A stretch of DNA of 64,000 bases from Calothrix sp. NIES-4105 (GTDB lineage Bacteria > Cyanobacteriota > Cyanobacteriia > Cyanobacteriales > Nostocaceae), in the NCBI RefSeq assembly GCF_002368415.1, contig NZ_AP018290.1:9787717-9851716 (forward strand), written 5' to 3'. Positions within the stretch are counted from its first letter, which is position 1, and each line of letters starts with the position of its first letter. The notes below the pieces were generated by a model. That model ran no database searches and was not told the DNA's origin. It saw only the letters and a list, made by a program, of their open reading frames with translations. This document shows, piece by piece, positions 20,834-24,799 of this stretch. The translations under genes and the position numbers were made by a program.

Positions 20834-22147
20834 TTAAGTTGTGTACTCGGCATTAATTTTCACGTAGTCGTAACTTAAGTCACAACCCCAAGCTTTACCT
20901 GAACCGTGACCGTTACCAATACTGACTTTAATTATTACTGGATTATCAACTCGTTGTGGTGCTACAGTACTGCGGTCAACTGTAAGGTCGTTGCTCATGT
21001 TAGTTGCTGTAAAATCACCAGCTACACTTGAGTTTTCTGCGATATGCTTCAAATAATTACTGGCGCCCAAGCGGTCAAATGGTAATGGTTGTCCATTTTC
21101 CATCAGTAAAAAATCACCCAGTTGAATTCGCAAGTTTTCCTGTTCAAATACAACTCCCGCGCGTCCTGCTGCTGCTCCTATTCTTCCCCAATTTGGATCA
21201 CGTCCAAATATTGCAGATTTTACTAGCGATGAACCAGCAATTGTTTTGGCTACAGTACGCGCCCCCGAATCATCTGGCGCCCCTTCTACTTGCACTTCTA
21301 TCAAGCAAGTAGCACCCTCACCATCACGGGCAATAGATTTTGCTAAATGTTGACATACTGCTGTTAACATCGCTTCTAACTTTTCTGCCTCGGCGCCCAT
21401 TTCTGTAATAGCAGGAGTTCGCGATTGACCATTGGCAAGGGCAATCAAACTATCATTAGTACTAGTATCACCATCTACGGTAATTGCATTAAAACTTTTA
21501 TCAGCAGCGCGCGAAAGCATTTGCTGCCATAAATGCGGTGAAACAGCTGCATCACACGTTACAAATGCAAGTAGTGTTGCCATGTTTGGATGAATCATCC
21601 CTGAACCTTTAGCTATTCCACCAACTCGTACTGCCCTATCACCAATAGTTGTCTCCAACGCGATTGATTTTGGCACCAAATCAGTAGTAATAATTGCTCC
21701 TGCTGCTGCATCTGAACCAGTTTCCGAAAGTGCCGCAACAAGTTTGGGAATTCCGCTTCGCATCGCATCCATTTTAATACGCTGCCCAATTACACCCGTT
21801 GATGCCAACAATATTGATTCTGAGGAAATATTTAATACTTTTGCCAAAATTTCCGCACTTTCAAGCGCATCACGCATTCCTTGTTCACCTGTTGCTGCGT
21901 TCGCTTGTCCCGCATTACAAAGAATCGCGCGCGACCCAGGCTTCGTCTGCAATCGCTCTCGACAATAATCTACACATGCTGCCTTAACGTGACTTGTAGT
22001 AAATACCCCTGCTGCAATTGCATCTACATCTGATAGTATCAACGCTAAATCTGGCAACCCCGAAGGTTTTAACCCAGCTTTGATACCCGCTGCCCGATAT
22101 CCTCTAGGCGCCGTGACTCCACCACTAATTTCATGCCAGTCTGTCAT
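20834..22147 (-). CDS. argJ: Bifunctional ArgJ, glutamate/ornithine acetyltransferase
   Basis: About 437 residues. ArgJ transfers acetyl from N-acetylornithine to glutamate and usually also acetylates glutamate from acetyl-CoA, giving the cyclic arginine pathway. The autocleavage site is in KGSGMIHPNMATLL, where the Thr becomes the nucleophile of the beta chain. I place the start at ATG 22147 (MTDWHEISGGVTAPRGYRAA). The open frame extends upstream to 22309, but those 54 codons come from the first small-RNA unit and do not belong to ArgJ. Gene lies just downstream of the small-RNA array. Confidence 0.93.
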   Translation of the reverse strand: MTDWHEISGGVTAPRGYRAAGIKAGLKPSGLPDLALILSDVDAIAAGVFTTSHVKAACVDYCRERLQTKPGSRAILCNAGQANAATGEQGMRDALESAEILAKVLNISSESILLASTGVIGQRIKMDAMRSGIPKLVAALSETGSDAAAGAIITTDLVPKSIALETTIGDRAVRVGGIAKGSGMIHPNMATLLAFVTCDAAVSPHLWQQMLSRAADKSFNAITVDGDTSTNDSLIALANGQSRTPAITEMGAEAEKLEAMLTAVCQHLAKSIARDGEGATCLIEVQVEGAPDDSGARTVAKTIAGSSLVKSAIFGRDPNWGRIGAAAGRAGVVFEQENLRIQLGDFLLMENGQPLPFDRLGASNYLKHIAENSSVAGDFTATNMSNDLTVDRSTVAPQRVDNPVIIKVSIGNGHGSGKAWGCDLSYDYVKINAEYTT

Positions 22148-22259: not shown

Positions 22260-22312
22260 AAAAAAAACAGAGAGCTACTTTGGCAGCTCTCCAGATCATC
22301 AGGGTGCATCTA
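22260..22312 (-). ncRNA. Tandem small RNA unit 1 (closest to argJ)
   Basis: The -10-like TATTAT is at 22323-22318. The 15-nt ATGCACCCTGATGAT is at 22309-22295. The terminator stem (GAGAGCT, then AGCTCTC at 22276-22270) is followed by a T-run. This most divergent unit has a 7-bp outer stem where the others have 5 bp plus an inner 3 bp, so pairing is kept while bases change. Ends are estimated. Confidence 0.65.
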
Positions 22313-22423
22313 TTAACATAATACACCATTTTTGGGATGCCGTGCATTACCCCCTATCTAATTTTATAAAAATTTTATAAAATTTATATCTAATTGTTAG
22401 CTATTACACAACGAAAAAAACAG

Positions 22424-22476
22424 ACAAAAAAAAGAGAGCCACTTGCGTAACTCTCCGAATCATCAGGGTGCATCTA
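22424..22476 (-). ncRNA. Tandem small RNA unit 2
   Basis: The -10-like TATATTATG is at about 22490-22482. The invariant 15-mer starts at 22473. Hairpin arms are 22455-22451 and 22438-22434, followed by eight T on the minus strand. The upstream palindrome AGGGGTGCCACCCCT is at 22519-22505, near the -35 position. Confidence 0.7.
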
Positions 22477-22605
22477 CTTAACATAATATATCACGTTTGC
22501 TATGAGGGGTGGCACCCCTTAAACGGATTTTTCATAAAGATATTGTAATAAATGCATGAAGCTAAATTAAAAAAATCTATGGTTTATTAGTACTAATAGG
22601 AAGAC

Positions 22606-22657
22606 AAATAAAAAGAGAGCTACTTGCGTAACTCTCCGAATCATCAGGGTGCATCTA
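22606..22657 (-). ncRNA. Tandem small RNA unit 3
   Basis: Nearly identical to unit 2. The invariant 15-mer starts at 22654, hairpin arms are 22636-22632 and 22619-22615, and a T-rich tail follows. The upstream palindrome AGGGGTGTCACCCCT is at 22700-22686. The stem TAC/GTA inner pairs are intact. Confidence 0.7.
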
Positions 22658-22786
22658 CTTAACATAATATATCACGTTTGCCATGAGGGGTGACACCCCT
22701 TAAGCGGATTTTTCATAAAGATATTGTAATAAATGCATAAAGCTAAATTAATAAAATCTATGGTTTATTAGTACTAATGAGGAGAC

Positions 22787-22838
22787 AAATAAAAAGAGAG
22801 CTACTGGCGTAACTCTCCGAATCATCAGGGTGCATCTA
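22787..22838 (-). ncRNA. Tandem small RNA unit 4
   Basis: The invariant 15-mer starts at 22835. Hairpin arms are 22817-22813 and 22800-22796, with the loop changed from TTGC to TGGC on the plus strand. The -10 reads TATAGTATG. The upstream palindrome is degenerate (AGGGGTGTTACACCT, 22880-22866). Confidence 0.7.
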
Positions 22839-22944
22839 ATAACATACTATATCAGATTTGGCATGAGGTGTAACACCCCTTACAGGATTTTTTCTGAATA
22901 AATCGTTAAGAAAATTTTATAGCGGCTAAATAAACAGGGGTTAT

Positions 22945-23015
22945 TACGTAGGGTGTGTGACGCAACCAGAAATCTCAAGCCATAACAAAGAATCATATAG
23001 CGTCACGCACCATCG
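22945..23015. repeat. GTAGGGTGYGTGACG inverted repeat inside the array
   Basis: Arms gtagggtgtgtgacgc and gcgtcacgcacc flank a 40-base centre. A second copy is at 61703-61770. It is a dispersed hairpin element that interrupts the spacing between small-RNA units 4 and 5. Confidence 0.6.
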
Positions 23016-23046
23016 CGCTCTCTTCAACAAATTTCTTAAAAGTAGA

Positions 23047-23098
23047 TAAAAAAAGGAGAGCTACTTACGTAACTCTCCGAATCATCAGGGTGCATCTA
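23047..23098 (-). ncRNA. Tandem small RNA unit 5 (closest to gatB)
   Basis: The invariant 15-mer starts at 23095. Hairpin arms are 23077-23073 and 23060-23056, with a seven-T tail. The -10 region is weaker (GATATTGTGCG). The upstream palindrome GGGGTGGCGCACC is at about 23140-23127. The gap to unit 4 is longer because a GTAGGGTG-type repeat lies between them. Confidence 0.65.
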
Positions 23099-23207
23099 CT
23101 TGACGCACAATATCATTATAGGGATGAGGTGCGCCACCCCCTATTCAGTATTTTTTTGTAAATTTTTGATGAAGAAATAAATAAAGTTAAAAGTTAAAGT
23201 TAAAAGT

Positions 23208-23314
23208 GCGCTCGTGCGCTCGTGCTGAGTCAGAAGATAGAAGTTATGAGGGGCAAAGTTAAAAGTGAGGATAATAGCTTTTCACTTCAATACTCAGCAC
23301 GAGCGCACGAGCGC
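23208..23314. repeat. 23-bp perfect inverted repeat downstream of gatB
   Basis: GCGCTCGTGCGCTCGTGCTG plus AGT at 23208-23230 is exactly mirrored at 23292-23314. It lies 13 bases after the gatB stop codon and contains the GCTGAGT heptamer also seen at 38757-38800, 50872-50925 and 60308-60340. It may end gatB transcription before the small-RNA array. Confidence 0.75.
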
Positions 23315-23326
23315 GCTCATTACTGT

Positions 23327-24799
23327 TTAAGCGTTTAGCTTTTTCTCGACCAATTCATTAGTGAGACGGGGTTCAGCGAGTTTGTTGGTTTTTTTGAGGA
23401 CTTGCCCGACAAAGAAACCCTTGAGATTAACATTACCACCTTTGTACTTCTCGTATTCTTTGGGGTTAGCGGCAATAACTTCGTCAATAATAGATTCGAG
23501 GGTAGCGGGGTCGCTAATGAGTTCCTTGCCTGCGAACGCTTTTTCGGGTGGCACACCATTAAGTAAATCGGTTAGCTTTTCTTTGGCGATGGCATTGCTA
23601 ATTTTACCGCTTTCGATTCGAGTAATAACATCCGCTAAGTTTTTTGGAGTTAAACCAATGTCGGTGATAGCGAGTTTTTGTTTGTTGAGGTAAGCTGCAA
23701 TATCTTGTGTAATCCAGTTTGCCGCAGCTTTGGCATTGGCGCCACAATTAATTACTGTTTCAAAATATTCAGAAACAGTGCGCTCTTCAGTAAGAACGCG
23801 CGCATCGTATGCAGAAAGTCCTAACTTTTCGTAGCGTTGACGTTTTTGGGCAGGAAGTTCGGGTAACTCGCTTTTCCAAGTATCCAACTGTTCGCTAGTA
23901 ACTTCGATAGGTCCTAAGTCAGGTTCGGGGAAATAGCGGTAATCGCTAGAACCTTCTTTTTTCCGCATACTAATAGTACGTTGTGAACCTTCTTCCCACA
24001 ACCGGGTTTCTTGGATAATCGGTTCACCAGCTTCAACAGCAGCAATTTGTCGTTCAATTTCATACTCAATTGCTCTTTGTATTGCGTTGAACGAGTTCAT
24101 GTTTTTGATTTCGACTTTAACGCCAAATTCTTTTTGTCCAACTGGACGAACAGATATATTAACGTCACAGCGCAGCGAACCTTCTTGCATGTTACCGTCG
24201 CTGACACCTAAATAACGCATTATTCGACGCAGTTCTTGCGCGTATTCTGCAGCTTCTTGTCCAGAACGTAAGTCAGGTTCAGATACTATTTCTACTAACG
24301 GAACACCCGCGCGGTTGTAGTCTACAAGTGAGTAAGTCGAACCAGATAATCTTTCGCTACCTGCGTGAACAAGCTTACCAGCATCTTCTTCCATGTGGAG
24401 ACGAGTAACACCAATCTTCTTACGAGTTGGATTACCATCTTTATCGATTAACTCGATTTCTAACCAACCATGTTCAGCAATAGGTAAATCGTACTGTGAT
24501 ATTTGGTAGTTTTTAGGTAAATCAGGATAAAAGTACTGCTTACGGTCAAACTTACTATATTTTGCAATTTGGCAATTAAGCGCTAAACCTGCCTTAACGG
24601 CATATTCTAAAACTTTTTGGTTGAGTACTGGCAACACTCCGGGTAAACCCATACAAACCGGGTCAATGTTCGTGTTGGGGTCGGCGCCGAATGCAGTCGA
24701 ACTATCGGAGAAAATTTTAGTGTTGGTACTAAGCTGACAGTGGGTTTCTAGCCCAATAATCGCTTCATACTCTGTTTTAACTGGAGTAGCAGTAGTCAT
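23327..24799 (-). CDS. gatB: Asp-tRNA(Asn)/Glu-tRNA(Gln) amidotransferase subunit B
   Basis: A 490-residue subunit of the GatCAB complex, which amidates misacylated Glu-tRNA(Gln) and Asp-tRNA(Asn) in the cytoplasm. It has the N-terminal GLETHCQL, FSDSSTAFGADPN and RKQYFYPDLPKNYQISQYD motifs, the LHMEEDAGKL signature, and a C-terminal GatB/Yqey tail domain (about 340-490). Full length with ATG 24799 as start. No gatA or gatC is adjacent, which is usual in cyanobacteria. Confidence 0.97.
   Translation of the reverse strand: MTTATPVKTEYEAIIGLETHCQLSTNTKIFSDSSTAFGADPNTNIDPVCMGLPGVLPVLNQKVLEYAVKAGLALNCQIAKYSKFDRKQYFYPDLPKNYQISQYDLPIAEHGWLEIELIDKDGNPTRKKIGVTRLHMEEDAGKLVHAGSERLSGSTYSLVDYNRAGVPLVEIVSEPDLRSGQEAAEYAQELRRIMRYLGVSDGNMQEGSLRCDVNISVRPVGQKEFGVKVEIKNMNSFNAIQRAIEYEIERQIAAVEAGEPIIQETRLWEEGSQRTISMRKKEGSSDYRYFPEPDLGPIEVTSEQLDTWKSELPELPAQKRQRYEKLGLSAYDARVLTEERTVSEYFETVINCGANAKAAANWITQDIAAYLNKQKLAITDIGLTPKNLADVITRIESGKISNAIAKEKLTDLLNGVPPEKAFAGKELISDPATLESIIDEVIAANPKEYEKYKGGNVNLKGFFVGQVLKKTNKLAEPRLTNELVEKKLNA

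Follow-up and report, generated by a model that had tools for sequence, protein, structure and literature searches.

The closest described system to the locus reported here is NsiR1 of Nostoc sp. PCC 7120, a small RNA encoded in a tandem array upstream of hetF. According to the accessible text of the source, each copy is about 50-60 nt long with one terminator hairpin and an individual promoter, and NsiR1.4 binds the start region of the alr3234 mRNA and lowers its product (PMC9045159). The regulator HetR recognizes a short inverted repeat; in the accessible part of PMC4192349, crystal structures define GGGnnnnnCCC as the HetR site, the inverted repeat GAGGGGTCTAACCCCTC of hetP is a binding site for HetR, and the hetZ site is related to GGGTCTAgCCCagCA. 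The HetR site of Nodularia hetZ is placed 56-17 nt upstream of its start (PMC3610870), and hetP and hetZ have both been described as genes that HetR activates (PMC7377430), again as given in the accessible portions of these papers. Here we describe an array of five small-RNA genes in Calothrix sp. NIES-4105, of which the best reading is a HetR-site sister of NsiR1, with HetR control as a prediction from sequence. The literature searched, in main texts without supplements, yielded no published description of this array, and the accessible main text of a HetR ChIP study, whose table goes by gene number, does not mention argJ or gatB.

The window, meaning the whole 64,000-nt stretch of DNA analysed, carries the array on the minus strand at 22260-23140, between gatB and argJ. 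Both neighbours, named in a preliminary description of this DNA, were verified by Pfam: gatB lies upstream at 23327-24799 (minus strand; PF02934 and PF02637) and argJ downstream at 20834-22147 (minus strand; PF01960), the argJ start codon being our choice, with the mechanically called open reading frame starting further upstream, at 22309. Unit A, farthest from argJ, occupies 23048-23100 (seed 23084-23098), followed by unit B at 22791-22840 (seed 22824-22838), unit C at 22610-22659 (seed 22643-22657), unit D at 22426-22478 (seed 22462-22476) and unit E, which adjoins argJ, at 22260-22314 (seed 22298-22312). The predicted transcripts of units A to E are 53, 50, 50, 53 and 55 nt, their start being a guess from the -10 box, in agreement with the approximately 52 nt proposed earlier. 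The earlier picture of five tandem minus-strand units, each with a -10-like box, a constant 5' segment and a terminator hairpin, was borne out in all five. This anatomy supports, at the level of prediction, an array of five small-RNA genes, each with its own promoter-like sequence and terminator.

The invariant part of the array is the 5' segment, which we call the seed. The 15-mer noted earlier (ATGCACCCTGATGAT) is present in all five units, the seed TAGATGCACCCTGAT being exact in each on the minus strand, and no further match to it with up to 3 mismatches was found in the window beyond the five units. The sequence TATATTATG, which had been given as common to the array, is exact only in units C (22657) and D (22476); at the same position unit E (22312) has TGTATTATG, unit B (22838) has TATAGTATG and unit A (23098) has GATATTGTG. 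The same 3' hairpin is predicted for every unit, with fold z-scores against shuffles of -3.8, -4.0, -2.7, -2.0 and -2.9, and a terminator scan of the window returned all five units (minus strand) and one other site (plus strand) compared with 0.8 expected. The seed had been described as unpaired; it is open in the consensus fold of 83 sequences, and single-sequence folds place 4-6 weak pairs within it (5 in unit B at 22838), so that the description holds for the consensus and not strictly for individual units. Units C and D lie within a 181-nt direct repeat whose copies are 94% identical. Inside this repeat a 12-nt palindrome, ATTAGTACTAAT, is found at 22586-22598, in the gap between units C and D, and again at 22766-22778, in the gap between units B and C. 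Just after gatB, at 23198-23324, there is a 33-nt inverted repeat with 88% complementary arms and a 61-nt spacer, which may be an interspersed repeat. Sub-threshold Rfam matches to MIR173, on this inverted repeat, and to sbrA were taken as chance.

At the gathering threshold, no Rfam family matched anywhere in the window. The NsiR1 model RF02399 did find all five units below threshold, with 32.7, 31.7, 30.9, 28.5 and 21.4 bits against a gathering cut-off of 39. The alignments account for these scores: the NsiR1 5' segment UAGAUGCACCCUGAU is identical in all five units, preceded by a G only in units A, C and D, and the hairpin is different. Thus the array shares with NsiR1 an identical 15-nt 5' segment, a length of roughly 50-60 nt, a single terminator hairpin and tandem copies with individual promoters, those of the array being predicted (PMC9045159, accessible text). 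It differs in lying between gatB and argJ rather than beside hetF, in carrying a -10 box and a HetR-like palindrome where NsiR1 has DIF, in its hairpin, which leaves it below the Rfam cut-off, and in its presence in HetR-negative lineages. The suggestion that the units may form a separate family therefore stands with respect to hairpin, promoter, locus and RF02399 score, and does not stand for the 5' segment.

The two types of RNA could be compared within one genome, since RF02399 exceeded its cut-off at 15 places in the 12.04-Mb genome from which the window comes. Twelve loci around these matches were read outside the window. Seven seeds form an array at C1:9371893-9372986 beside a CHAT-domain open reading frame, which we take to be hetF, twelve seeds are spread over eight other loci, and three loci have no seed. 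Among these 19 seeds in nine loci, 18 have TCC[GT]GA at -42 to -34 and none has a HetR-like palindrome. In the window the counts are reversed: TCC[GT]GA precedes none of the five units, as the preliminary description had recognized, and four of the five match at least 8/10 positions of GGGGTnnnACCCC, the fifth matching 7/10. One genome thus carries one seed behind two types of promoter. The twelve dispersed NsiR1-type seeds (L042-L049), 11 of them with the DIF-like TCC[GT]GA, lie far from the hetF-side array, and by sequence NsiR1 in this genome is a multi-locus family.

The palindrome over the -35 region matches GGGGTnnnACCCC, the published HetR-binding core, at 10/10 positions in units C and D, 9 in unit B, 8 in unit A and 7 in unit E. 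The individual minus-strand sites are GGGTGGCGCACCTCA in unit A (23125-23139), GGGTGTTACACCTCA in unit B (22864-22878), GGGTGTCACCCCTCA in unit C (22684-22698), GGGTGCCACCCCTCA in unit D (22503-22517) and GGGTAATGCACGGCA in unit E (22338-22352). Compared with the pattern GGGTNNNNCCCNNCA, the sites of units C and D are exact, and are the only exact ones in the window, and those of A, B and E have one mismatch each; allowing one mismatch, the window holds 17 matches, including all five units, compared with 3.81 expected. GGGN5CCC is likewise exact in units C and D, with a single mismatch (CAC for CCC) in A, B and E. Across the genome, GAGGGGTNNNACCCCTC with at most one mismatch occurs at 6 places, 2 of them in the array, the reversed-pattern control giving 3. 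Its sole exact occurrence lies about 1.2 kb upstream of a gene that we presume to be a hetP homologue, another open reading frame lying between. Like the hetP and hetZ sites, the array sites have the form GGGTN4CCC with a trailing CA (PMC4192349 and PMC3610870, accessible text). They differ in preceding small RNAs and in position, being centred at about -34 from the guessed start as compared with about -45, by our count, for Nodularia hetZ, one turn further up (PMC3610870, accessible text). The match to published HetR sites was overlooked in the preliminary description and makes a link to differentiation likely despite the missing DIF motif.

Conservation of the units in relatives is extensive. 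A 151-nt probe around unit D had matches in 47 of 60 genomes, its own included, and a model built from 83 units was found in 282 of 388 genomes of the order at an E-value of 1e-3; in the same 388 genomes HetR (PF03574) was found in 236 and RF02399 in 256. A seed-plus-stem pattern run over named genomes returned at least 116 stretches, and among the matches listed are Symplocastrum, Coleofasciculus, Microseira, Argonema and Limnofasciculus, none of which is known to form heterocysts. For further analysis a family set of 247 non-redundant units in 124 loci was used (1 to 8 units per locus), leaving aside 12 hairpin-less seed-like matches, duplicates over 120 nt and seeds with less than 70 nt of flank. 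The seed is exact in 195 of the 247 units, a conservation that is partly by construction because 178 units come from loci found by the seed-plus-stem pattern; for the 69 units from loci found by DNA similarity, it is exact in 59. Across 83 sequences the hairpin is 95.9% paired. Cells of the alignment in which both sides of a pair had changed numbered 12, above all 500 shuffles; the number of pairs with changes on both sides (2) was not above the shuffles, 423 of 500 being as high. A single unit (L008 1586, L071 4962) combines a remodelled hairpin, GGAGAGAGAGCCACTTGGGCTTCTCTC, with an unaltered seed. The genomic position is also conserved, gatB being upstream and argJ downstream in 60 of the 124 loci and one of the two in 47 more (107 in total).

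The promoter features extend to the family. GGGN5CCC is found in the -35 region of 123 of the 247 units (shuffle mean 0.06) and the longer form GGGTN4CCCN2CA in 92 (shuffles 0), the shuffles preserving base composition only. The register is tight, with 110 of 126 strict matches centred exactly at -36 from the first T of the seed. An extended -10 element is even more common, TAnnnT being found at -14 in 221 units and TG at -17 in 199, and TCC[GT]GA was absent from the 60 nt upstream of the seed in all 247. In units of Nostoc-type loci, such as L063, L069, L077, L079 and L080, the seed and hairpin are kept and the HetR-like site has decayed, as in CTGGTGACAACCCGCATA; Nostoc punctiforme-like units are among those with a degenerate site.

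The relation of the palindrome to HetR was examined using promoters from 79 of the 282 model-positive genomes, each genome being scored by its best unit. This promoter set omits nine strong-match HetR-negative genomes of family f8 along with weak-match genomes, and omits units without a T-run or hairpin match, such as the second units of G145 and G395. A palindrome of at least 8/10 was found in 50 of 51 HetR-positive genomes compared with 4 of 28 HetR-negative ones; among genomes that are at least 90% complete the counts are 50/51 and 2/24, and for strict GGGN5CCC they are 41/51 and 4/28. The HetR-negative genomes with a palindrome are the near-complete G043 and G176 and the incomplete G288 (89%) and G230 (82%), and the one HetR-positive exception, G012, has a palindrome of only 7/10. 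Some units of HetR-positive genomes lack the site, G145 and G395 each having one such unit out of two. The palindrome-less HetR-negative genomes fall in two families, f18 and f8. In 24 genomes of these families (12 each) there is one seed RNA per genome, with the seed exact in 24/24 and the palindrome present in 0/24; gatB or argJ is alongside in 20, the remaining four being of genus g102. RF02399 at an E-value of 1e-5 had no match in 23 of the 24, G325 having one. By eye, HetR-negative lineages have a similar extended -10 without the palindrome. Members of f18 (probably Gloeocapsopsis crepidinum and a Chroococcidiopsidaceae MAG) and of g102 (probably Microcystis aeruginosa NIES-843) are unicellular. 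In a GatB tree of 52 rows, made after removing loci without a GatB of more than 250 residues, there are 3 supported independent contrasts, with a mean of 1.8 concordant, 0 discordant and 1.2 showing no difference; with only 3 independent contrasts, the co-occurrence cannot be significant on the tree. A Fisher test of the genome counts takes no account of kinship and does not suffice by itself.

We consider it reasonably probable that the five small-RNA genes use the 5' seed of NsiR1 under direct control by HetR and act in trans through this shared seed. HetR would bind the GGGGTnnnACCCC palindrome, whose centre is 36 nt upstream of the seed and at about -34 from the guessed start; there it would cover the -35 region of a promoter with an extended -10 element and alter the activity of this promoter. 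On the direction of this effect our opinion is divided almost evenly, leaning slightly to activation because of the fixed register and the precedent of hetP and hetZ, with repression favoured by the strength of the extended -10 and its persistence where HetR is absent. Each promoter would yield an RNA of 50-55 nt ending at its own hairpin and T-run, a step that the anatomy supports. By analogy with NsiR1, the 5' seed AGAUGCACCCUGAU would then pair with the translation-start regions of distant mRNAs and block their translation. Several copies would raise the dose of seed RNA. From its DIF promoters, NsiR1 proper would supply this seed in a different cell or at a different time. The position between gatB and argJ is best explained as a conserved address, with the target elsewhere. 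Concerning origin, we suggest tentatively, and with less than even confidence, that an old seed RNA at gatB/argJ, also present in HetR-less cyanobacteria, came under the control of HetR in filamentous lineages, some of them without heterocysts, and that the same seed stands separately behind DIF as NsiR1. In that case HetR would set the level of seed directly and a second time, one tier further down, via HetZ and DIF, and two promoter logics would feed one post-transcriptional signal in cell-fate choice. We had entertained the gatB-argJ form as the ancestor of NsiR1 and dropped this idea; ancestry is not claimed because family f32, which is HetR-negative, also has DIF-like copies. The f32 loci (G066, G089, G108, G125 and G158, among L257-L275) contain NsiR1-type RNAs in genomes without a HetR match, several of them with the DIF-like TCCTGA, TCCGGA or TCCCGA, and these are not beside gatB or argJ in the loci read.

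The same RNAs could instead be repressed by HetR, the extended -10 running by itself until HetR shuts it in differentiating cells and DIF-driven NsiR1 takes over the seed. The strong -10 consensus speaks for this possibility, as do the similar -10 elements, judged by eye, of palindrome-less HetR-negative lineages and a site nearer the start than that of hetZ (PMC3610870, accessible text). The tight register would be expected of an activator, though it may stem from common ancestry, and hetP and hetZ are HetR-activated in the accessible text of PMC7377430; on balance we consider the repressor model possible and somewhat unlikely. It is less likely still that the palindrome belongs to another transcription factor common to filamentous cyanobacteria, with HetR merely correlated. 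Other genes missing from the two families of site-less HetR-negative genomes would correlate equally, and the site persists in G043 and G176, which have no HetR match, but the palindrome resembles the published HetR site beyond its core, in GGGT, N4, CCC, N2 and CA.

We also weighed explanations that dispense with a distinct promoter or with a trans-acting RNA. A true NsiR1 array that had drifted, giving extra copies without distinct control, would account for the identical seed and for the sub-threshold detection by RF02399, but is improbable given scores under the cut-off, another hairpin, the lack of TCC[GT]GA throughout the family and the occurrence of units in the 24 f18 and f8 genomes, 23 of them without an RF02399 match. 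The hairpins might act in cis as a leader or attenuator of argJ, which lies on the same strand, starts about 110 nt after the last terminator and is downstream in 85 of the 124 loci. Each unit, however, is equipped with a promoter-like sequence and a terminator of its own, argJ is missing downstream from 27 loci in which more than 1.2 kb is available, and 7 loci with space for both neighbours have neither, so we treat cis control of argJ as a weak candidate and very improbable. Finally, the ATG in the seed is nearly invariant and could begin a small peptide gene (MHPDD...), the frame of unit E continuing into argJ. We rejected this reading because one-base indels and varied loop lengths break the frame between units; there is also little space ahead of the ATG for a ribosome site, and hairpin pairing is kept instead, leaving a peptide with hardly any probability.

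Two other RNAs can be compared with the array by description only. The sRNA 4547237r of Nostoc 7120 resembles the array RNA in being about 51 nt, conserved and represented by few reads, and differs in being described as exclusive to heterocystous strains and in having been detected in both the wild type and a hetR mutant; it comes from a study whose starting set was 627 segments predicted in strain 7120, among which the array RNA may be (PMC4734099, accessible text). RNA162 of Limnospira indica, 57 nt and said to be NsiR1-like, is from a non-heterocystous strain with hetR, an example of the occurrence of HetR in filamentous cyanobacteria without heterocysts (PMC8400943, accessible text). RNA162 could be of either type, NsiR1 or array RNA. 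For filamentous cyanobacteria that do not form heterocysts, a conserved small RNA preceded at a constant distance by a HetR-like site offers a concrete candidate for a HetR target. Our data also suggest that a second set of RNAs, under a different switch, may read the targets of NsiR1, so that studies in which the NsiR1 seed was titrated or over-expressed may have registered both sets.

Candidate targets were sought with the pattern CAGGGTGCATN{0,14}ATG over 37 genomes, which returned antisense matches to the seed RNAs themselves and scattered sites. The site common to four genomes of the window's own genus (L290 and L307-L309) lies inside an open frame and not at its start. The start of a hetP-like paralogue (L256), which has no Pfam match, showed no complementarity to the seed (-4.4 kcal/mol, a value equalled or undercut by all 300 shuffles). 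Among loci L277-L331, the sole repeated match at the start of a long open reading frame is at a gene that we read as glycosyltransferase-like, in two Fischerella genomes (G010 and G014). The duplex predicted between the window's seed and this start has an energy of -23.5 kcal/mol; two genomes are too few to claim the gene as a target. In these loci (L321 and L330), CAGGGTGCATCTCATG, the complement of the seed, overlaps the glycosyltransferase-like gene at its start codon.
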